In this document: piece after piece, positions 26,244-64,000 of the stretch
Layout of the letters: each line of letters begins with the position of its first letter
How positions within the stretch are numbered: position 1 is the stretch's first letter
NCBI GenBank assembly: GCA_903939115.1
Contig: CAJAFV010000068.1
Coordinates: 1 to 64,000, forward strand
Source of the DNA: an uncultured Geobacteraceae bacterium
GTDB lineage: Bacteria > Desulfobacterota > Desulfuromonadia > Geobacterales > Pseudopelobacteraceae
DNA length: 64,000 nucleotides
Direction: 5' to 3'
The notes under the pieces: model-generated
Databases searched by the model: none
Seen by the model: the letters and a program-made list of their open reading frames with translations, nothing else
Told to the model about the DNA's origin: nothing
Made by a program: the position numbers and the translations under genes

Positions 26244-29200
26244 TTATTTCAGTTCGATCCGGTACATCAGGTCTCCACCGGTTGCAACGGTGCTGATCTT
26301 GGATTCAACCTCCCACCGCTTACTGATCGAATAACGCGCTCGAAACTGTTGGCTCTGGTCAAATAACGACTTTCCATAGCTGACATAGAGCTTGGGCGTC
26401 AGATATTTTCCAAGCTGCAGCATGGTCTGGGAGACACTGGTGGTATTCGCACTGCTCTGGGAATTGCTGCGCATTGACGGTTCAATGGCCTTGTATCCCG
26501 GACGCTGGTCCTTACCGGAAGAGACCGTGACGGTATCGAGGGCAATCCACTCTTTGAGTTGCTCTTGAAGCCCTGGCGAATGGTCGGAAGAAACAAACAG
26601 CGACGCCGCCTCCATCAGTATGGCGCCCTGACTCCCGCTCTCCCCCAGGCTGCGGCCGAGAACGACATATGACAAAATATCGGTATCGGGAAGCGACGGT
26701 TCTGAATAGAGCTTTACAAAAGGTTCTTCCGGAGTACCGGTTACTGTAACCCCGGCCTTGACATCATCAACCGTGCGCAATGCCAGAATATCGAGGGTCG
26801 GCCGTTCCACCGACCCGCCTGAAAAGAGTGCCCGGCCCCGCTGTATATCAAGGCTGACCCCGTAGATTTTGTAGGTCCCCTTGGCAACCTTGATCTCACC
26901 GCTTCCAGTCGCCTTTGTGAAATCTGTCATAGCAAGCGTTACTCCACCGACCAGACGGGCATCTACCCCCCCGTACTTGACAAATACCTTGTCTCCGAGG
27001 AGTATTTGGATCTGCAGGTCCAAGGGGAAACCAGTTGACCGTGAAGCAGCACGCTCCCTTCCTGCCACGATAACGTCGCCGCTCGGCTTGATGTCTGCCG
27101 TGGAGCTGAAACGGCGGAGCAGCATCTCCGGAACCCTGATCACCCCACGGGCAGAAAATGTATCCTTGCTACCGGTGAACGTGAGGTCCGGTGCGACTAC
27201 CAACTGTTGTTCGGGGAGATTTAACGCCTGAAAACGTTCGCCGCGCAGAGTGCCATGATAGCCTGTCAATGTGCTTCCCGCTAAAGAGATGCCGGCAGTG
27301 CCCTCCAGCGTGCCCTTCCCTGACGTAAGCCGGAATTTTTCGATCTGGATTTGCGTCCCTGTGGGACTGGCGGCTAGACGGGCGTCCAGCTGGACATCGG
27401 TAAGCCTGATTCCGGCAGATGGAAGATAGGCACCTGCCTGAGTCATACCGACTGTTCCGTTCACAGTTGGCGACTGCCACGTCCCCCCGGCTTGAAGATC
27501 GACCTTAACCAGGCTCTTGACCTCCTGAAGCAGGCCGGGAAACAACGCATTGATAATCCCGCTCTCCTGGAAATTGCCTTTGATCGTCCCTTTAACTTGT
27601 TCGCCTGGATCGATAACGGCTCCGAAGTGCGCCGGAAGCGGAAGCTGGAAATCGCCCATGCATTCGCCCAGCTGCGTCAGAGACAACAAAAACGAACCAC
27701 GGAGGGAATCGTCACGCCAGCTCCACCGTAAGCCGGCCGTCCGAACTGCAATCGCCAGCTCCCGGCCGTGGTCTCGCCAGCTTCCAGAACCGTTTGCCAG
27801 TGTGACGGTCCCGTTAAGGTCGAAGCGCTGCTCCGGCAGGAATTTTCCGGAGACCTCACCGGAAAGCTTTCCCTGCAGGTCGACCCCCTGTGGGAACCAG
27901 CGTTTCGCAAGTGCCGGATCGAGGCCATCCCATGTGGCATGCAGATCGCCACGGGACGGAACTGACAGGGTTGATGACGCCGGTGAGAAAAATCTCCCCG
28001 TGGCAGAGATGCCCTGTTTGGTTCGAAGCTCAAGCAGGGCCGTGGTACCGTGGCTACCGGCATCCAGATCGAGCAACGCTTTAGTTATGGTTACGGTCTG
28101 CTTGTCAAGAGTTAGCGAACCGGCCGCTGACGCATTCCCTGCCAGACTCAACCGCTCGTTGCCACTCAGGCCGAGACGAAGCTGCCCTGAACTCTCCCCT
28201 GCGAGACTGAGATCCTTCACCCACTTGTTCACTCGCGCCAGATTCAGGCTGTTCCAGCTCACCTGTGCCGTCCCTGTACGCGGCTTCAGGTACAACCGAC
28301 CGGTGAGTTCAAGCCGCTCGGGCGACAATCCGGTCAGTACGAGGGGGGCGATGTCTACATACTCAGCTGAAATTATCAATGCTGATGGTGCCGCAAGCTG
28401 GCAGGAACCAACGGCGTCGTGCCCTGATAATTCGGTAAGTGTACCCTGCCAGCGACCATCGGCATATCCACCGGAAAGTTTTCCGATGGCAGCCGCACCC
28501 GCTGAACCGACCTCCATCTCCAGCCGGTGGTTCTGCAGCGAACCATCTGCCTTCAAAGAAGCGGTGTCGGCGTGTACACCACGATATGTCACGTTGTTCA
28601 GTTTTACGGCGGCAGTTAAACCTTTTCCAGGCCCGTCATTAGACTTTGCGGAAAAAGTGGTCGAGGAGACCTGTAGCCCCTCCGCATTCAGCTTTGAACC
28701 ACGACCGGTAACAGTGCCGCTGACAATCCCGGCGGCATAGCGCCCCCATCCCCGGAGAGCGAGAGCGCCACTGGCCTGTGGGATGAGGCCCGAGAGGTTG
28801 CTGATGTTTGCTTTTATATCGAGACGCTGACTGAGCATACCAGTGGCGGCTATGTCAAAACCGTTACCGGCCAGGGAGAGGTGCTCAATAGTGAGATCGT
28901 TATTTTTCAGCATGGCGGCAATCTCCCCGGAAAACGCCTTTCCGCGAAGACGGCTTTCCTTGAGCCGGCCATGCACTTCACCCTGCCGCAACTGGCCTCC
29001 AGCCGACGAGACCATGAAACTGTCCACGTCAAAATTCACGGCACCCTGCCATACAGGGGCAATGATGGCCGGGTTCAGCCCCGTTCCATGGAGTGCGCCT
29101 TTCACCGACACTTCGCTGCTCCAGCCGAAGCGAAGGTTTCCCCGGACAGCCCCGTTAAGAACGGCAGCATCGATATCCGATACTTCAACGCTCTCAGAAT

Positions 29201-54039: not shown

Positions 54040-54232
54040 GTTTTCTCCTTAATTCAAATAGTGGCACTGAACTATAATCAGGATAAATCAAGCGGCGTCA
54101 ACAGAAAATGGCATAATTGACAACTTTCCACTTGTCTTGCTATACCTACCCTTGACCGGGAGGCTGAGGTCCGAACACTGCATAGTGTATTTGATGGCCT
54201 TGTGACAGGCTAATCCCAACATGAGGTATGTA

Positions 54233-55378
54233 ATGAAACAGACAAAAGGGACTGTAGTAACACTTCTCCTATTGATATGCATAACAGCCTGCAGCAAGGG
54301 TGACGCTAAAAAAAGCACCGGGCAGGCCGCCAAGCCACCGGTTGCCGTAGAAGCCGTCGCTGCAGCCGCTTCCGAACTAATCGACGGGATTCAGGTTACC
54401 GGCAGCCTGGAACCAAAGTTTTCAGTGGATATCAAGACCCAGATCCCCGGCCTGATACAGCAGGTGTATGTTACCGAGTGGATACGGGTCAGGAAAGGGC
54501 AGGCGCTGGCGCGGATCGATGTCGCCGAAACGGCGGCTCTGGTCAAGCGGGCCGAGGCGGCAGTGGAATCGGCCAAAGCCGGTCTGGCCCAGGCCGGTGT
54601 CGCAGTTACCCGTGCCGAGCGGGAGCGAGAACGTATGCTCAAGCTCAAAGAATCCGGGCTGGCCACGCAGCAGGCCGTAGATGATTCCCGCTCCGAGGCC
54701 GAAGCGGCCAGGACGAAGGTTGACGCGGCCCGCGCCCAGTTAGGTGTGGCCGAAGGAGAACTGCACCAGACAAAGGCCAGGCAGGACAAGTCGCTTGTGG
54801 CATCCCCTCTGGACGGTGTCGTTGCCCTGCGCGACGTCAACGTGGGAGACCTGGCAAGTGACGCCGCCGCCGGCAAGCCGATCTTTCGTATCGTGGACAA
54901 CCGCCTGCTCAACCTTACCGTAACAGTTTCATCGGCAGACTCCGCACGGATCAAGACCGGACAACCGGTGGAGTTCTCCGTGGATGCGCTGCCGGGACGG
55001 ACCTTTACCGGCACGGTTATGTTCATCAATCCGGAATTGAGCAGTGCCGACCGTTCACTGAAGGTTATTGCCGAAGTTAAGAACGTGCCCGAACTCCTGA
55101 AGGGTGGGCTGTTCGCCAAAGGACGCATCATCACCGGCAGGCGTAGCGGTGTGTTGCAGATACCGCGGAGCAGTGTCGACCGCTTCGATCCGGCAGCACG
55201 TACGGGTGTCGTATATGTTTTGCAAAACGGCATCGCCCATACGCGCACTGTCTCCACCGGCAGCGTAACCGGTGAGCAGGTGGAAGTGGTAACAGGCTTG
55301 AAAATCGGAGAGCAATACGTCGTACGCGGCGGGTTCAACCTCAAGGATGGGGACACCATACTGATTCAAAAACATTAA
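54233..55378 (+). CDS. RND efflux periplasmic adaptor lipoprotein (MFP)
   Basis: A 381-residue membrane-fusion protein. A signal peptide ends in the lipobox ITAC (lipidated Cys near residue 18). The order is lipoyl half-motif (VDIKTQIPGLIQQVYVTEWIRVRKGQ), long alpha-helical hairpin (Ala/Glu/Arg-rich, about 85-165), second lipoyl half, beta-barrel and membrane-proximal domain. I start at the ATG at 54233 with GAGG upstream. It bridges the inner-membrane pump to the outer-membrane channel encoded downstream. Its stop codon lies in the left arm of a palindromic repeat. The substrate is unknown. Confidence 0.92.
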   Translation: MKQTKGTVVTLLLLICITACSKGDAKKSTGQAAKPPVAVEAVAAAASELIDGIQVTGSLEPKFSVDIKTQIPGLIQQVYVTEWIRVRKGQALARIDVAETAALVKRAEAAVESAKAGLAQAGVAVTRAERERERMLKLKESGLATQQAVDDSRSEAEAARTKVDAARAQLGVAEGELHQTKARQDKSLVASPLDGVVALRDVNVGDLASDAAAGKPIFRIVDNRLLNLTVTVSSADSARIKTGQPVEFSVDALPGRTFTGTVMFINPELSSADRSLKVIAEVKNVPELLKGGLFAKGRIITGRRSGVLQIPRSSVDRFDPAARTGVVYVLQNGIAHTRTVSTGSVTGEQVEVVTGLKIGEQYVVRGGFNLKDGDTILIQKH

Positions 55379-55500
55379 CGCAAAGACGCCAAGGCGCAAG
55401 GGCGCAAAGTTAAAATTGAATTACATTAAATATTAAACCTTAATTTGCTAGATTTTCCTTGTGCCTTTGCAACTTTGCATCTATTGCATCTTTGCGTTAA
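55375..55500. repeat. palindromic element A (ACGCAAAG units) between adaptor and pump genes
   Basis: The outer 12 bases of the arms (TTAACGCAAAGA) match perfectly in inverted orientation at 55375-55386 and 55489-55500. Inside, both arms continue as near-periodic GCAAAG/GCCAAGG units around an AT-rich centre. The adaptor stop codon lies in the left arm, and the pump start is 63 bases beyond the right arm. This is a dispersed non-coding palindrome type known from many genomes. Confidence 0.8.
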
Positions 55501-55562
55501 ATGCCTTTTAATCCTTTGACCATAGAAGTTACAAAATAAGATTGATAAAGGAAACATCCTGG

Positions 55563-58500
55563 ATGATCCTCTCCGACCTCTCTATAAAACGCCCCGTCTT
55601 CGCCACGGTTATGATCCTGGCCCTGGTGGTCGTGGGCATATTCTCCTACCGTCGTCTGGCGGTGGAAATGTTCCCCAATGTCGAATTCCCGGTCGTCTCC
55701 GTGGTGACAACCTTTGCCGGTGCATCGCCGGAAACCGTCGAGCGCGAGCTCTCCAAACGGATCGAGGAAGCGGTCAACCAGGTGGCCGGGGTAAAGCATG
55801 TCTTTTCGACCTCCCGCGAGGGTGTTTCCACTGTCGTGGTCGAATTTCGCCTGGAAGAGAAGGTCAATGACGCGGCTCAGGAGGTGCGCGCCAAACTTTC
55901 CTCTATCCGCGGCACCCTGCCGACAGGAATTGAAGAGCCGATCATCCAGAAACTGGATTTCAACGCCGCTCCGGTGGCAGCTCTGGCGGTACAGTCAACC
56001 ACCCTTTCCCCACGGGAACTGACTGTCCTGGTGGAGAAAAAGATCAAGAAGCGCTTCGAGAGCGTAGCCGGCGTGGGTAAAGTGGACATGGTCGGTGGGC
56101 AGAAGCGGGAAATCAACGTGGATATTGATCCGACCCGACTGGAGGCCCTCGGCATGGGGGTCAATGATGTCGTCAACGGGATTAAATCCGAAAACACCAA
56201 CACCCCGCTCGGGCGCATAACCCGCGGCACAGCCGAATATCCGCTGCGCATCGAGGGGAAACCGGACCGCGCTGATCAGTACCGCCAGATGACCGTGGCC
56301 CAGCGGAGCGGACGCCCGATAACATTGGGCGAGGTCGCCCAGGTGTCCGACGGCGTAGAGGAAAAGCGTAAACTGGCCCTGGTAAACGGCCAGCCGGCAA
56401 TAGGACTGGATATTTACAAACAGTCCGGCGGGAACCAGGTGGAACTGGTCGACACGGTCAAAAAGGTTATCGCCAAGGTGCAGAAAGAGATGCCGCCCGG
56501 CGTCAGTATCACGCTTGTCCGGGACGGTTCAATCATGACCCGCGAGTCTCTGGCCGATGTCAAGGAGACGCTGATTATCGGCGGCATACTGACGGTGCTG
56601 ATTGTGTTCTGCTTCATCAACTCCTGGCGATCCACGGTCATTACCGGCGTGACCCTGCCGATCTCGGTTATTTCGGCGTTTATCGTCATGAACTCGCTCG
56701 GCATGACTCTCAATGTCATGACCCTGATGGCACTTTCCCTCGCTATCGGCCTGCTGATCGATGATGCCATCGTCGTGCGGGAGAATATCGTCCGGCACCT
56801 GGAGATGGGCAAGGATCATATGGAGGCCTCGCGCTTCGGCACTGCCGAAATCGGCCTGGCAGTCTTCGCCACCTCGATGTCGATCATCGCTGTATTTGTG
56901 CCGGTTGCCTTCATGAAAGGGATCGTCGGACGCTTCTTCTACCAGTTCGGCATAAGTGTGGCCTTTGCCGTGCTGGTTTCGCTGTTCGTCTCCTTTACCC
57001 TGGATCCGATGCTCTCTTCGCGCTGGCATGACCCCTCCATCCATCTGCAGGGGAAACGCAAAGGGCTGGCCCGCTGGCTGGAGAGCTTCAATCTCTGGTT
57101 TGACCGCAATGCCGACCGCTACCGTTCGGCTGTCGGCTGGGCCCTCGATCACCGCAAAACAGTGCTGGCAGCGGCCTTTACCTCATTTGTCGCCGGGCTG
57201 GCAATCTTCAGCACGTTGGAATCCTCCTTTATGGCCCAGTACGACAAGGGTGAGCTCCAGGTATCCTTCAAGACCGCACCGGATGCCTCCATGGCCGAGA
57301 CCGAAGGGAGGATGACCGCCGTTCTGGCTGCCGTACGCGATTTTCCCGAAATCGACCATACCTATACAACCATCGGCGCCGGTGATAGCGGCACGGTACG
57401 GGACGGACTCCTCTATATAAAACTTAAGGAGCGCACGGAACGGTCAAAAAATCAGTTTGTGCTCCAGCGGGAGATCCGCGAACGGCTGCACAAGGTGGCC
57501 GGCATTACCTTCTCCATCGAAGAGGTCGGACAGATCGGCGGTGCACTGAAACCACTCAACGTCAACCTGAAGGGTGAGGACCTGAACGTACTCAAGCAGC
57601 TCGGCGCACGGCTGAAAAAAGAGCTCTACACGGTGCCGGGTATCGTTGACCTCTCCATGACCCTGGAAAATGACATCCCGGAGTATCGTATGCGGGTCGA
57701 CCGTGACAAGGCGCTCTCGGCGGGGGTCACCACCAATGATATCGTCGCGACCCTCAGCCGGCTGATTGGGGGTGAAGCCATTTCCACCTACGAGGACGAA
57801 GACGGCGATGCGGTGGATGTGCGGGTCAGACTGCCGGAACGTCTGCGCCAGAACCCCTCGCAGGTAAATGATCTGCGGGTATCGGTTCCCGATGCTACTG
57901 GCGGCATAAAACGTGTGCCACTGGCCAGCCTTACCTCAACGGTGGTGGCGGCCTCGCCGACGGAAATCAATCGCCGCGACCTGGCACGACAGGTAACGGT
58001 CAGCGCCAATCTGGACGACCTCCCTATCGGAACAGCGGTAAAACATGTCGAGGCGGCGGCCAAACGGATCAACATGCCGCCCGGCTATGCCATCAATCTT
58101 TCCGGCGAGGCCGAGGACATGGCTGAATCCTTCGGCTACATGGGGGAGTCGCTGATCCTGGCGGTACTGTTTGTCTACCTGATTCTGGCGGCCCAGTTCG
58201 AGTCGTTTTTCGAACCGTTTGCCATCATGCTGTCGCTGCCGCTCTCGATTGTCGGCATGGCCGGCATGCTCAAGCTTACCGGCGACACCGTCAACATCAT
58301 GTCCCTGATCGGCCTGATCATGCTGATGGGACTGGTCACCAAGAACGCTATCCTGCTGGTGGACTACGCCAAAATACTGCAGCGAAGAGACGGGCTGTCG
58401 CGTCGAGATGCGGTAATCCTGGCCGGTCGGACGCGTCTGCGGCCGATCATCATGACCACTCTGGCCATGATCTTCGGCATGCTGCCGCTGTTCCTCGGCA

Positions 58501-58703
58501 TCGGCAGTGGCGCCGAGATGCGCGCTCCTATGGCCCGCGCCGTGGTCGGCGGACTGATTACCTCGACCTTCCTGACGCTCCTGGTGGTTCCGGTTATGTA
58601 CACGGTCATGGATGACTTCGGCGGCTGGCTGAAACGGAAGTGGAAAGGGAATATTTCGCATAACACGGAGCAACGAAGCAACGGAGGAGCAACAAAAGCA
58701 TGA
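55563..58703 (+). CDS. RND multidrug/metabolite efflux pump (HAE1 type)
   Basis: A 1046-residue inner-membrane pump of the AcrB/MexB type with 12 helices and two large periplasmic loops. The proton-relay pair of aspartates is in [12 protein letters not shown] (helix 4, about residue 400) and the relay lysine in [13 protein letters not shown] (helix 10), so it is H+-driven. I chose the ATG at 55563 ([13 protein letters not shown]), which has AAAGGA upstream; a TTG 21 bases earlier is less likely. Its last codons ([13 protein letters not shown]) come from the left arm of a palindromic repeat. Its stop overlaps the next start by 4 bases. Confidence 0.93.
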
Positions 58704-58815
58704 AAAATTTCAAAAAGAATCAAACCGTTTTAGATCTATCTACACCACGGTCTTCAAGGAAAACATTTTTCAGAAGGTTTCTTGCCTTCTCTGTTGCTCC
58801 GTTGCTCTCTGTTAT
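58660..58815. repeat. palindromic element B straddling the pump/outer-membrane gene junction
   Basis: Inverted arms of 23 bases lie at 58660-58682 and 58793-58815 and match at 20 of 23 positions; they consist of ATAACA and repeated GAGCAACG units. The element carries the last ~14 codons of the pump gene, the start codon of the next gene and its signal-peptide codons. Its unit style is like element A. Confidence 0.75.
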
Positions 58816-60091
58816 TTCAGGATTTACCTGTTTCGCCCATGCCTCTGAAATCCGCACAGTAATCCTGGATGAGGCGATCTCTATCGCCATGGAAAAGAAC
58901 CGCGATATCGAAAAAGCCCGCGAGTACGCCCACTATGTTGAAGGAAAATATGTCGAGGAGCGTGCTGCTGCCCTGCCACAGTTGTCGCTGAACGGCTACG
59001 CCGGCATGACAAGGGACAACGGTCAGGGGGCACTGTACGGCGCAGGTACGGCCCCCCTGCAGTACAGTCGCACCGCTGACATTGCTCTGAGCCAGCCCCT
59101 CTATACCTGGGGCAAGATCGGTGCGGCCATACGGGCGGCAGAGGCGGGACAGAAAACAGCTGAGGACCAGCTGCGGCTGTTCCGGCAGGCTGCTGTCAGG
59201 GACGTTACGACCGTCTTTTGTGATGTCCTGCTGGCGAAGGAGCTGCATACCGCAGCCCGTGAGAACCTGGAACAGAAAAAGCGCCTTCTTGAAGAGGCGC
59301 AACGCAAGTTTGCCGCCGGAACGGCGACAGATTATGATGTATTGGCGGCAGAGGTAGCTGTTCAAAACGCGTTTCCAGCCACTATCAGGAGTGAAAATGC
59401 GATCGCTGCCGCCCGGCATCAGCTCCGCTTTCTGCTGGCACTGGATGGCCAGGACGTCGATGCCAGTGGAACCCTTGATATGCCGCCCACGAATCCACCC
59501 GACTACCAGCAGGCCCTGAGGACTGCGCAGTCGAAGCGGCCCGAACTGGCCGACCTGCGGCACCGTATCGACATCTATAGCGAACTGGTAAAGATCGCCG
59601 ACGCCGAGAACAAGCCGCGACTCGATTTTAAAGGGAGTGCCGGCTGGCACTGGCTGGATATCAAGGAGTCTCCAACCTTGAACGGAGCATCAAACGGATC
59701 GGCATGGAGTGCGGGGCTGCACCTTTCATTCCCGTTTTTCGATGGGCTGAAGGGAAGCGGCAAGACGGCACAGGCAAAAAGTGACTTGCGCAGCCGGCAG
59801 ATCGATGAAGCCAGACTGCTCGAATCGATCGCTCTTGAGATCCGGACCAGCAGAGACGCTGTCAAAGAGGCCACAGATATTGTCCAGGCACTCAGCGGAA
59901 CGGTCAAACAGGCGGAACGGCTGGTGCGGATGGCAGAGAAGGGGTACGAATTCGGCGTCAAGATCCGTCTGGAGCTCGATGACGCCCAGCTGAACCTGGT
60001 GCAGGCCAGAAGCAATCTGGCCCGGGCAGAGCGCGACTACCTGGTGGCCCAGGTCAATCTCCTCTGGGCTATGGGTGTTGCGGGGGAATAG
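58700..60091 (+). CDS. TolC-family outer-membrane efflux protein
   Basis: A 463-residue outer-membrane factor. After an unusually long N-terminal leader (about 50 residues, cleavage near FAHAS) come two copies of the TolC pattern of alpha-barrel hairpins and beta strands, for example LDEAISIAMEKNRDIEKAR and DYVLAAEVAVQNA-like helices, and RLVRMAEKGYEFGVKIRLELDDAQ near the end. It completes the adaptor-pump-channel operon. The leader is encoded by palindromic element B, so the original start and signal were probably replaced. The ATGA overlap couples it to the pump gene. Confidence 0.9.
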   Translation: MKNFKKNQTVLDLSTPRSSRKTFFRRFLAFSVAPLLSVISGFTCFAHASEIRTVILDEAISIAMEKNRDIEKAREYAHYVEGKYVEERAAALPQLSLNGYAGMTRDNGQGALYGAGTAPLQYSRTADIALSQPLYTWGKIGAAIRAAEAGQKTAEDQLRLFRQAAVRDVTTVFCDVLLAKELHTAARENLEQKKRLLEEAQRKFAAGTATDYDVLAAEVAVQNAFPATIRSENAIAAARHQLRFLLALDGQDVDASGTLDMPPTNPPDYQQALRTAQSKRPELADLRHRIDIYSELVKIADAENKPRLDFKGSAGWHWLDIKESPTLNGASNGSAWSAGLHLSFPFFDGLKGSGKTAQAKSDLRSRQIDEARLLESIALEIRTSRDAVKEATDIVQALSGTVKQAERLVRMAEKGYEFGVKIRLELDDAQLNLVQARSNLARAERDYLVAQVNLLWAMGVAGE

Positions 60092-60307: not shown

Positions 60308-62884
60308 ATGACGGTCAGTTGTGACGATATTTCATGGATGCCCCTTTTCAGGGGCCTGTCTCCGGACGAGCTTTACTCTATCGCAATCCGTCTGGAAAAA
60401 TGTGTATTTTTGTCCGGAGTGGTCATTTTGTCCAAGAATGCGCCGGCGGATGAACTCTTTGTGATTCTTACCGGGACGGTGAAAGTTGAGCTTCAGGACG
60501 GCATCGGACAAATACTCAACCTCACTGAGCTGGGGCCCGGCGAGATCATCGGAGAACGCGCCGCCCTCACGAATGAACCGCGCTCTGCAGATGTAAGGGC
60601 AGTTTCCGACGTTCAGGCGGCACGTCTTTCACGCCGCGATTTTGAGGAACTGCTGCATGAAACCCCGAAAATCTATGCGAACCTCTGCACCATTCTATTG
60701 CGGCAGCTTGGCCGCTCGGCGCACCGTCATCAGCGGGAGGAACGCGAGCACCGTGAGGTGATCACCAATGTCATCGGCTGGCAGCTCCTGCCCGAATTTG
60801 GCGAATTTCCCGGGAATTCTTCATGGGTGCGCGCGCTGAACGGGCGCCTGGAGCGGCTCGGCAGAACCCGCAGGCATGTGCTGATCGTTGGTGAACCGGG
60901 GACCTGGAAAGACCTTGCCGCCCGGCTGATACATTTTCATGGTGACGCCCCGTGTCCCGTCCTGTTTCTGGACTGTTCATCTCCTCCTCCGGTAATTGGC
61001 ACCGGAAGTATGCAAACAAATTCTGCCGGGGACACACTGCTGGTGGAAATAGCCCAGGAGGCTGCTCTTTTCGGCCATACTCCGGATGGCGCCGTCTATG
61101 CCCGCAGAGCCCGGCGCGGCATGCTGGAACTGGCGGCCGGTGGCGATATTATCCTGCGCAACATCAATTGCCTGACACCGTCAGTTCAGGGACAATTGAC
61201 CGCTTTCATGACAACCGGTCTATTCACACGAAGGGGGGAAACCAGTCAGAGAAACGCTCAGGTACGGATTATTGCGACCAGCAGTGAAGATCTGGCTACT
61301 TTGGTTGAAGGCGGGAAGTTTAACGCAGCATTGCATGAAAAATTCAGCGGTGAAACGATAGCAATGGCGTCACTCCGCGAGCGCAAGCAGGACATACCGG
61401 TAATTGCCCGCAGCCTGCTGAAGAGCCTCAACGCCAAGCACCACAAGCAGGTGCGCCGTATTTCACAGGATGCCCTTAACCGCCTGGTTGATCACGACTG
61501 GCCGTTGAACGGCAGCGAATTATATCAGGTAATCAGCCGTGCCGTAGTCGTCTGCACGAATGAAGAAATTCATTCCGAACAGATATTTCTTCAGGGACAG
61601 CCGTTTGGGGATGGCCGTTTCAACCTGCTGTCGCTTCCGTCCATTGAAAAGCTGGCCCGACGGCACGATTTTCCCCGAATCCTGCGCTTGAGTACGGTTC
61701 CTCTGTTTTTGCTGACCATGTTCTACACGCTGCTCGGGCCATCCTTTGACAATGCTGCAAACCTGGCGGTCTGGACGCTCTGGTGGCCGGCATTGCTGCT
61801 GACGGCATTCCTGTTTGCACGGGGGTGGTGCAGTTTTTGCCCCCTGGAAGCTATCGGAGAGTTTGTCGGCGTCAAGAACCGGGTAACGCACGAACCTATG
61901 AAATGGCTCCGGCGCTGGGGGGCGCCTGTGAGTCTTGCCGCACTGGTCTTTATCCTGCTCGTTGAACAGGCGTCCGGGATGTTTTCATGGGCCTTCGCCA
62001 CCGGCCTCCTATTGACCGGCCTGCTCGTGGCAACTGTCTCCGCCGACCTGGTCATCGGCCGCCGCGGCTGGTGCAAATTTCTTTGCCCTCTCGGCAGGAT
62101 AGTCAGTATGGTGTCGCGGATTTCATTGTTGGAAATGCACAGCAACCACAATGTGTGCGCCAGCCGCTGCCGGGTTGATGATTGCGTCAAGGAGAAAGGG
62201 TGTCCAATGGGTCTTCATCCCACCGGAATCGACAACTCTGACCACTGCGTTCTCTGTTTCGACTGTGTCCGCAGCTGCCCGCATCACTCCATGCAGCTCG
62301 ACCTGCGCAACCCTGTCCTGGGGCTTTTTAATCAGGCGCGCCACGGGTTCTATGAGGCGCTCTTCAGCGTGTCCTTGGTGGGCGTTATCATTGCCGCAAA
62401 AGGAACTCCGCTGCTTGCAGGGCGCTCACAGGGGGTTTTCCCCCATACCCTATGGAGCCTGACCGAGTCGGTGCTGGCGCTGGTTATCGTGACTGCATTC
62501 ACCGGACTTGCGCTGCTCTTATCGACCGGTACCCGTGACTCCCCCTGGAAGCCGGTATTCACAATTTGCGGCATAGCCTATCTGCCGTTGGCCATCGCCG
62601 GTCTTTTCATGATTTATTTCCGCGCATTGGTTGAGGGGGGAGCGCAGATAGTCCCACGCACTATTATTGCAGCGGGTCTGGGCAATTGGCTGAATGCGGC
62701 ACGACTTACACCGGAACTTGGAACGCTCCGCCTGCTGGTCTATCCCATTCTTGTTACGGGCGCCCTCTTCTCCTGGTTCGTACTCAGCAGACTGCAGCAT
62801 CAGTACAACATAAGTGCTACCGGGCGCATCGGCCACCGCGTCCTGATTCTCCTTGCTGCCGCGGCATTTATCCGCATCTTGTAA
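60308..62884 (+). CDS. cyclic-nucleotide-binding / degenerate AAA+ / NapH-like membrane ferredoxin fusion
   Basis: An 858-residue protein with three parts. Residues 13-115 are a cNMP-binding fold with an intact phosphate cassette (GEIIGERAALTNEPRSADVRA). Residues 155-430 resemble a sigma54 enhancer-binding AAA+ domain, but Walker A reads GEPGTWKD (195-202), Walker B GGDIILRNI, the GAFTGA site GAVYAR (261-266) and sensor II WPLNGSEL (398-405); only sensor I (RIIATSSEDL) and LRERKQDIP look normal. From 460 it is a membrane protein with about nine helices and NapH-type cysteines: C508/C511, C589/C593, then [4Fe-4S] motifs C617, C621, C626, C632 and C647, C650, C653, C657. It follows the efflux operon by 216 bases. 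Likely role: a nucleotide-controlled membrane [16 protein letters not shown] protein; this is inference. Confidence 0.85.
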   Translation: MTVSCDDISWMPLFRGLSPDELYSIAIRLEKCVFLSGVVILSKNAPADELFVILTGTVKVELQDGIGQILNLTELGPGEIIGERAALTNEPRSADVRAVSDVQAARLSRRDFEELLHETPKIYANLCTILLRQLGRSAHRHQREEREHREVITNVIGWQLLPEFGEFPGNSSWVRALNGRLERLGRTRRHVLIVGEPGTWKDLAARLIHFHGDAPCPVLFLDCSSPPPVIGTGSMQTNSAGDTLLVEIAQEAALFGHTPDGAVYARRARRGMLELAAGGDIILRNINCLTPSVQGQLTAFMTTGLFTRRGETSQRNAQVRIIATSSEDLATLVEGGKFNAALHEKFSGETIAMASLRERKQDIPVIARSLLKSLNAKHHKQVRRISQDALNRLVDHDWPLNGSELYQVISRAVVVCTNEEIHSEQIFLQGQPFGDGRFNLLSLPSIEKLARRHDFPRILRLSTVPLFLLTMFYTLLGPSFDNAANLAVWTLWWPALLLTAFLFARGWCSFCPLEAIGEFVGVKNRVTHEPMKWLRRWGAPVSLAALVFILLVEQASGMFSWAFATGLLLTGLLVATVSADLVIGRRGWCKFLCPLGRIVSMVSRISLLEMHSNHNVCASRCRVDDCVKEKGCPMGLHPTGIDNSDHCVLCFDCVRSCPHHSMQLDLRNPVLGLFNQARHGFYEALFSVSLVGVIIAAKGTPLLAGRSQGVFPHTLWSLTESVLALVIVTAFTGLALLLSTGTRDSPWKPVFTICGIAYLPLAIAGLFMIYFRALVEGGAQIVPRTIIAAGLGNWLNAARLTPELGTLRLLVYPILVTGALFSWFVLSRLQHQYNISATGRIGHRVLILLAAAAFIRIL

Positions 62885-62899: not shown

Positions 62900-64000
62900 T
62901 CAGTTAGATTCCGTTTGTGTCTGTTGTTTTGATTCGAACGGAAGCCTGATCGTAAAGACGCTCCCTTTCCCAAAGGTACTTTCTAAGGTTATCTCCCCAC
63001 TTTGTCTGTTTATGATCTCTCGGGAGATGGAAAGTCCGAGTCCGGTTCCCTTTCCGACCTCCTTGGTGGTGAAAAAGGGTTCGAATACCTGGCTGAAGTT
63101 TTCAGGCGGGATACCTTTACCCGTATCAGCCACCGACAGCAGAACATTACAATCGTCTTGCCAGGTTCGAATGGATATGGTTCCCTGGCCTTCAATGGCT
63201 TGGGCGGCGTTTACCACGAGGTTAGCGATAACCTGACTCAGGTGATGGCTGTTACCTCGGATCGGTGGCAAATCTTCCTGAAGGTCCAGCAATAATTCAG
63301 CGACATATTTATATTCGTTACGAACAATGTTCAGCGTGGAGTGCAGGCACTGGTTCAGATCCACTAAGTCCGTCTGTTGATCGTCGCTCCGGGAAAAGCT
63401 CTTTAAATCTTTTACAATGCTCTTAACACGGTTCACACCATCCAGCGATTCATTCACGAGTCCGCTCAGGTCAGATAGTATGCGGTCGATCTTCAGTGAA
63501 GTGCGGACGTCTTTAACAGAGTCCGGCCATTCTCCCCCGGTGCGCTCCAGAAAAGCTTTCTCCAGACTTTGGACGTAATTCCCGATTTTTTGACCATATT
63601 TGTCAAGGGTATACAGGTTGCTGGCAATGAATCCAAGCGGGTTGTTAATTTCGTGGGCGACCCCGGCTGCCAGTTGGCCGATGGATGCCATTTTTTCCTG
63701 CTGTATCATGTGCATCTGCATCTGTTTTAAAGAGTGTTCAGATTTCTTTTGTTCATCGATGGTCTGCTGCAACTGTTTCATTTTTGTTTCAAGCTTGTCG
63801 AACAGTATCTTGTTATAATTCTGTAACTGCAGCATCTGCTCATCGAGCGTACTCTCGTCATCCGCTCCGGAAATGCGCGCACTCTCGGCGAGCGCCTGTT
63901 CGACAGCTGCGATTATTTTTTCCGGCGCTGACGGTTTCAGCAGATAGCAAAAGGCACCAAGACTCAGACCGAACTGCTGATCCTGTTCCTGCTGATAATC
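62900..64000 (-). CDS. REC-histidine kinase, 5' end beyond the window
   Basis: 366 residues are visible. The frame stays open to the window edge, and residues coded at 63836-64000 are the end of a receiver domain (LGAFCYLLKPSAPEKIIAAV, with the conserved KP). A coiled coil (KLETKMKQLQQTIDEQKK) leads to HisKA with H-box AAGVAHEINNPLGF and an HATPase domain (NLVVNAAQAIEG, DTGKGIPPENFSQVFEPFFTT, GTGLGLSISREII). The protein converges on the membrane-ferredoxin gene with a 15-base gap. The ATG at 63835 is internal, not the true start. The input is unknown. Confidence 0.88.
   Translation of the reverse strand, partial: DYQQEQDQQFGLSLGAFCYLLKPSAPEKIIAAVEQALAESARISGADDESTLDEQMLQLQNYNKILFDKLETKMKQLQQTIDEQKKSEHSLKQMQMHMIQQEKMASIGQLAAGVAHEINNPLGFIASNLYTLDKYGQKIGNYVQSLEKAFLERTGGEWPDSVKDVRTSLKIDRILSDLSGLVNESLDGVNRVKSIVKDLKSFSRSDDQQTDLVDLNQCLHSTLNIVRNEYKYVAELLLDLQEDLPPIRGNSHHLSQVIANLVVNAAQAIEGQGTISIRTWQDDCNVLLSVADTGKGIPPENFSQVFEPFFTTKEVGKGTGLGLSISREIINRQSGEITLESTFGKGSVFTIRLPFESKQQTQTESN

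Follow-up and report, generated by a model that had tools for sequence, protein, structure and literature searches.

We describe here a family of bacterial proteins, conserved and apparently undescribed, in which a CRP-like cyclic-nucleotide sensor, a catalytically degenerate sigma54-activator-type AAA+ domain and a NapH-like membrane ferredoxin share one chain. The single parts all belong to known kinds; taken together, the chain is possibly a new class, and we found no description of this layout in the literature. We give about an even chance to the reading that the fusion is a signal-gated membrane redox protein. The representative analyzed lies in a 64,000-nucleotide stretch of DNA from an uncultured Geobacteraceae bacterium (the window), with the following features:

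60308..62884, forward strand: fusion gene, 858 amino acids, ATG start (open frame; full-length one-frame homologues)
60320..60745, forward strand: residues 5-146, CRP-like cyclic-nucleotide domain with a long C-helix and the phosphate-cassette residues Glu83 and Arg92
60785..61597, forward strand: residues 160-430, sigma54-activator-type AAA+ domain and lid, catalytic motifs degenerate
61613..62317, forward strand: residues 436-670, NapH-like membrane module of four helices with CX2CP and CX3CP motifs, then an eight-cysteine ferredoxin part (PF12801; NapH model; cysteine spacing; predicted helices)
62318..62881, forward strand: residues 671-858, five more predicted membrane helices with the conserved His843 (models)
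54221..60091, forward strand: neighbouring RND adaptor, pump and TolC-like genes, candidates only, ending 216 bases upstream of the fusion
62900..64000, reverse strand: neighbouring convergent histidine kinase gene, candidate only

An earlier sequence-only reading of this DNA had described one frame fusing a CRP-type sensor, an AAA+ domain and a polyferredoxin, and had proposed a domain search. Both the frame, 858 codons on the forward strand without an internal stop, and that search agree with it: Pfam matches cNMP_binding (residues 34-117, E 3e-20), Sigma54_activat (170-347, 7e-20), AAA_lid_14 (357-426, 6e-16) and Fer4_5 (488-522, 2e-6). The NCBIfam NapH/MauN model (TIGR02163) aligns to residues 498-664 with 43 bits, for a cut-off of 213. 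No curated model of Pfam or NCBIfam spans the whole chain (for NCBIfam, among the best 25 of 36 matches, none of which reaches its own cut-off).

Homologues are present in 35 of the 141 genomes surveyed from the order (search at E <= 1e-60), and in 34 of these, single-contig genomes included, the match covers sensor, AAA+ and membrane part in one stop-free frame, the exception being G099. A separate scan of named genomes returned 16 loci at 60-78% identity; they belong to Geomonas and Citrifermentans, both with cultured strains among the carriers, and to Geobacter and relatives. An even sample of 395 genomes from the phylum (Desulfobacterota in GTDB) gave a match in 21 at E <= 1e-45, two of them seen before, with identity down to about 25%. 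Finally, plasmids of the cyanobacteria Pseudanabaena galeata and Aulosira laxa bear the fusion at 24% identity, the matches covering 96% and 87% of the query.

An assembly error or a decaying gene might be suspected from the G099 homologue (L079), whose frame is without most of the sensor, and from a second Pseudanabaena plasmid (NZ_CP112876.1, about 26991-27654), where pieces of the gene are found at 95% identity, a quarter of it being covered. However, the fusion is unbroken in the single-contig genomes G121, G031, G038, G040 and G046 and in named isolates, and all four parts are under purifying selection, with dN/dS of 0.06-0.10 in the NapH-like part versus 0.10-0.23 elsewhere (seven pairs, with dS close to saturation; one AAA+ value was omitted because its dS was infinite). 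Values of 0.06-0.23 in all four parts argue for a maintained protein, and we consider error or decay extremely improbable. Homologues that were always two separate genes had been named in the sequence-only reading as a sign of misassembly; the survey instead shows a one-frame fusion, with one 528-aa relative from the phylum sample (L072) consisting of the membrane half alone.

Enhancer-binding proteins require the Walker B acids, the GAFTGA loop and the sensor II arginine. In the fusion, Walker B reads ILRN (Arg284-Asn285) with both acids missing, GAVYAR occupies the GAFTGA position and sensor II is Ser403; these motifs had been read correctly from the sequence, as had the loss of promoter-melting residues. 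The alignment adds further losses: Walker A is GEPGTWKD, with the P-loop glycine replaced by Trp200 and the lysine kept, and the two arginine-finger positions are Asn339 and Lys345. Close homologues share the replacements (Trp200 and Asn285 in 30/30, Arg284 in 29/30, Ser or Thr at 403 in 30/30), hence these changes are not due to chance.

As a control, we turned to the genome's 34 further sigma54-AAA loci; 31 of them could be aligned and three had no match. All 31 siblings keep the Walker A glycine and lysine and the first Walker B aspartate; the second acid is Glu in 30 and Asp in one, and Arg is present in 30 at each arginine finger and at sensor II. A single sibling, L134, is the source of all the arginine-finger and sensor II losses, the other 30 keeping every checked site. 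This 460-aa protein (G000:C37) retains Walker A and B and has Ser and Gln at the arginine fingers and Lys at sensor II. In a quick tree, a branch of 99% SH-aLRT support has all 31 siblings on the same side, so the AAA+ domain of the family may have a single origin.

Among 30 distant homologues, for which alignment columns are less sure, the Walker A glycine is found in 24 (23 of them with the lysine), an acid at the first Walker B place in six, and Arg at the first arginine finger and at sensor II in two each; none has Arg at the second finger. The second Walker B acid is absent from all 28 that have letters there, and thus from every readable sequence, including the 30 close homologues and the two cyanobacterial members. 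Walker A is intact in the latter. From these residues, ATP binding by the AAA+ part has probably been lost in the clade of the window, since Trp replaces the P-loop glycine throughout the 30 close homologues; it may be kept in distant lineages, and hydrolysis appears improbable across the family. The AAA+ fold itself is intact and followed by an activator-type lid. A C-terminal Fis-type DNA-binding domain (PF02954) was not found in the fusion with Pfam at E 0.1, the membrane module standing there instead, and no DNA-binding domain appears in the Pfam matches of the 13 members scanned with the AAA+ part. Loss of GAFTGA, the lack of a detected DNA-binding domain and the presence of the fusion in cyanobacteria (with no sigma54 match in the one control genome) make a sigma54 function unlikely.

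At the other end of the cytoplasmic part, the CRP-like sensor has both the fold and the phosphate-binding Glu and Arg, Glu83 and Arg92 each being kept in 30/30 close homologues. This conservation makes the ligand of the CRP-like domain the likelier switch, rather than a nucleotide in the AAA+ domain. The nucleotide-dependent AAA+ switch on the membrane ferredoxin that had been suggested from the sequence survives in part: a switch acting on the ferredoxin may be retained, but with Trp200 in 30/30 a nucleotide in the AAA+ domain is not supported as its driver. The alternative from the same reading, a protein that anchors a redox sensor at the membrane, is compatible with these data. The cassette Arg is lost in most distant members and the cyanobacterial pair lacks the Glu as well; with the Glu lost and Walker A intact, the cyanobacterial ligand may be a different one. 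Input domains also vary by lineage: L093 carries a GAF pair between the sensor and the AAA+ domain, and L066/L100 has an FHA domain ahead of the sensor, the adjoining gene encoding a Ser/Thr kinase (Pkinase) with TPRs. Since the redox part is constant, this variation points to the signal acting on the redox part and not to the opposite direction.

The membrane half forms a separate family. Its 12 cysteines are invariant in 62/62 sequences (60 from order and phylum, two cyanobacterial), as are the first membrane motif, CX2CP, the second, CX3C (followed by Pro in 50), and the ferredoxin motifs CX3CX4CX5-24C and CX2CX2CX3C; His843 is found in 30/30 close and 22/30 distant homologues. Paired Cys-Pro motifs in a membrane module liken it to NapH/MauN, NosR and RdhC/PceC, and the best curated match of this half is the NapH model, at 45 bits against the cut-off of 213. 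However, in NapH/MauN the first membrane motif is CX3CP and the first ferredoxin motif CX2CX2CX3C, and the fusion adds to the NapH/NosR/RdhC plan five predicted helices and an attached sensor. In contrast to NosR and RdhC, no FMN-binding domain was detected, with Pfam at E 0.1 or with curated models. Four other Fer4_5 proteins of the same genome, read by eye, have two CX3CP motifs each and classical ferredoxin spacing. Lys plus Arg counts are 4, 3, 12, 1 and 0 in the predicted inner loops and 0, 0, 1 and 1 in the outer ones; with the helix count, these positive charges predict that all cysteine motifs lie on the sensor's side of the membrane. According to PMC5928378, a module with two CX3CP motifs is common to NapH, NosR and RdhC, and in NapH and NosR it comes with a two-cluster ferredoxin part; the paper gives quinol oxidation as the proposed role of the NapH segments and describes the cysteine motifs as important. 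By analogy, the membrane half of the fusion, which likewise includes a ferredoxin part, would have putative Fe-S clusters and quinone chemistry.

Class III cyclase genes provide a hint as to the signal. Among the matches listed, such a gene, confirmed by Pfam in each case, lies within 3 kb of the fusion at four of 29 distant loci (L112 in G045, L085 in G209, L113 in G089 and L114 in G054), where 0.39 would be expected (Poisson P 7e-4; a test made on distant loci only and once the four cases were known; three of these belong to a single clade). All four are among the nine loci with the Glu and Arg cassette, two of which (L063 and L065) are doubtful alignments, compared to 0/20 for the other loci, again among the matches listed. 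A gene of the Apyc1-like phosphodiesterase family accompanies three of the four, standing between fusion and cyclase in G045 and G054 and on the far side of the cyclase in G089; none was seen among the clustered neighbours at G209. In the close clade the nearest listed class III cyclase is about 11 kb off, in G036. For the genome from which the window comes, no class III cyclase is among the matches listed; a class I match is absent too, and there is one weak CYTH match (33.5 bits). Across the order, class III cyclases listed show no association with the fusion gene (19/35 genomes with it, 64/106 without). Of separate note, a 3.7-Mb genome, G488, has 36 class III cyclase matches among those listed, the next highest of 23 genomes having 22.

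In a signal-gated redox protein, the CRP-like domain would bind a cyclic nucleotide and dimerise via its C-helix, the AAA+ domain would act as a non-hydrolysing oligomerisation scaffold and coupler, and the ligand-induced change would be passed on to the NapH-like module, which would exchange electrons both with the quinone pool and, by way of the Fe-S part in the cytoplasm, with a partner. We count in favour of this reading the strong constraint on the redox module (lowest dN/dS, 12 invariant cysteines), an AAA+ domain that is dead in all readable sequences, the lack of a DNA-binding domain in the 13 members scanned, the cyclase adjacency, the variable inputs and the charge topology. Counted against it are the absence of a class I or III cyclase match in the own genome and of an order-wide association, the loss of the cassette Arg in most distant members and of the Glu in cyanobacteria, the lack of a common neighbour in the close clade, the membrane-only L072, and a structure prediction with pTM 0.52 whose inter-domain geometry is uncertain. 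Second messengers are usually taken to control respiration via transcription. If our reading is right, a cyclic-nucleotide domain joined to a membrane Fe-S module would control electron flow directly and post-translationally, in relatives of Geobacter, a group prized for electron transfer. More tentatively, and with somewhat less than even confidence, we propose an ancient class spanning the Geobacter phylum and Cyanobacteria, in which ligands (cyclic nucleotides; elsewhere GAF ligands or FHA-read phosphopeptides) control electron exchange between quinone and cytoplasm post-translationally through a recruited, non-catalytic pseudo-sigma54-activator coupler, without gene regulation. The sigma54-activator AAA+ fold would then have been kept for its shape alone, even in Cyanobacteria, which are not known to have sigma54.

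Two other functions have to be weighed. CcoG, like NosR, has been proposed as a membrane maturation or activation factor, and the Fe-S part of the fusion could likewise assemble or reductively activate a partner enzyme, with the cytoplasmic part timing or recruiting. NosR is reported to help activate NosZ as well as to pass electrons to it, and when the NapH motifs are altered the partner NapG is lost from the membrane (both from PMC5928378); in cyanobacteria, the cysK gene after the fusion, with thioredoxin-like, rhodanese, DsrE or petC genes nearby, could mean thiol or sulfide chemistry. But the close clade has no conserved adjoining gene for a partner enzyme, and the lack of a detected FMN domain also speaks against such a factor, which we regard as rather unlikely.

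We hold it less likely still that the protein is a membrane redox sensor, its Fe-S or quinone state altering the pseudo-activator, which would titrate sigma54 activators or contact RNA polymerase. The intact AAA+ fold is compatible with such an output, as is an own genome with sigma54 and 30 siblings complete at all checked sites, and activators without GAFTGA working at sigma70 promoters are known (PMC10274813). However, the GAFTGA loop is lost, the searches gave no DNA-binding domain, and lineages differ in their domains at the input end rather than at the output. The same fusion is present in cyanobacteria, where PF04552 was unmatched in Synechococcus elongatus (the control genome only, not the plasmid hosts).

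Its domain content also sets the fusion apart from the closest known systems. An active sigma54 enhancer-binding protein shares the AAA+ fold and lid, but the fusion fails at Walker A and B, GAFTGA, arginine fingers, sensor II and Fis domain. Caulobacter and Rhodobacter NtrC and VpsR, which are DNA-binding regulators, are degenerate enhancer-binding proteins; the fusion has in addition lost Walker B, both arginine fingers and the sensor II arginine, has no detected DNA-binding domain and carries a membrane ferredoxin after AAA+. CRP/GlxR-type cyclic-AMP receptor proteins differ from it in that no helix-turn-helix was found in the fusion, which has AAA+ and membrane parts instead. The cyclic-nucleotide-gated potassium channel mll3241, a sequence match of the sensor, likewise joins a cyclic-nucleotide domain to a membrane module in one chain; in the fusion, however, the membrane part is a predicted electron carrier rather than a pore, and a pseudo-AAA+ domain lies in between.

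Neighbours of the fusion vary among sub-groups, and none is common to the whole close clade. Some close sub-groups have an unrelated divergent gene upstream. Several others have same-strand export genes there, namely ABC/MacB and LolA-like genes in Geomonas types and an HlyD adaptor with ABC/MacB in G015; besides the RND set of the window, these loci are L044-L047, L051, L118, L123 and L053/L111, and chance is a possible explanation. The G015 export set includes a 613-aa protein (L053:1789-3627) in which a bacterial CsgG-like domain is fused to WD40 repeats. In both plasmid-borne cyanobacterial loci (L124:7890-10583 and L125:7734-10448), cysK lies directly 3' of the fusion, and psbA and petC copies, thioredoxin-like, ArsP-like permease, and DsrE or rhodanese genes are found within about 10 kb. 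These cysK, thiol, ArsP-like and photosynthesis neighbours hint at sulfide or thiol stress, and the plasmid region is a possible island for that purpose.
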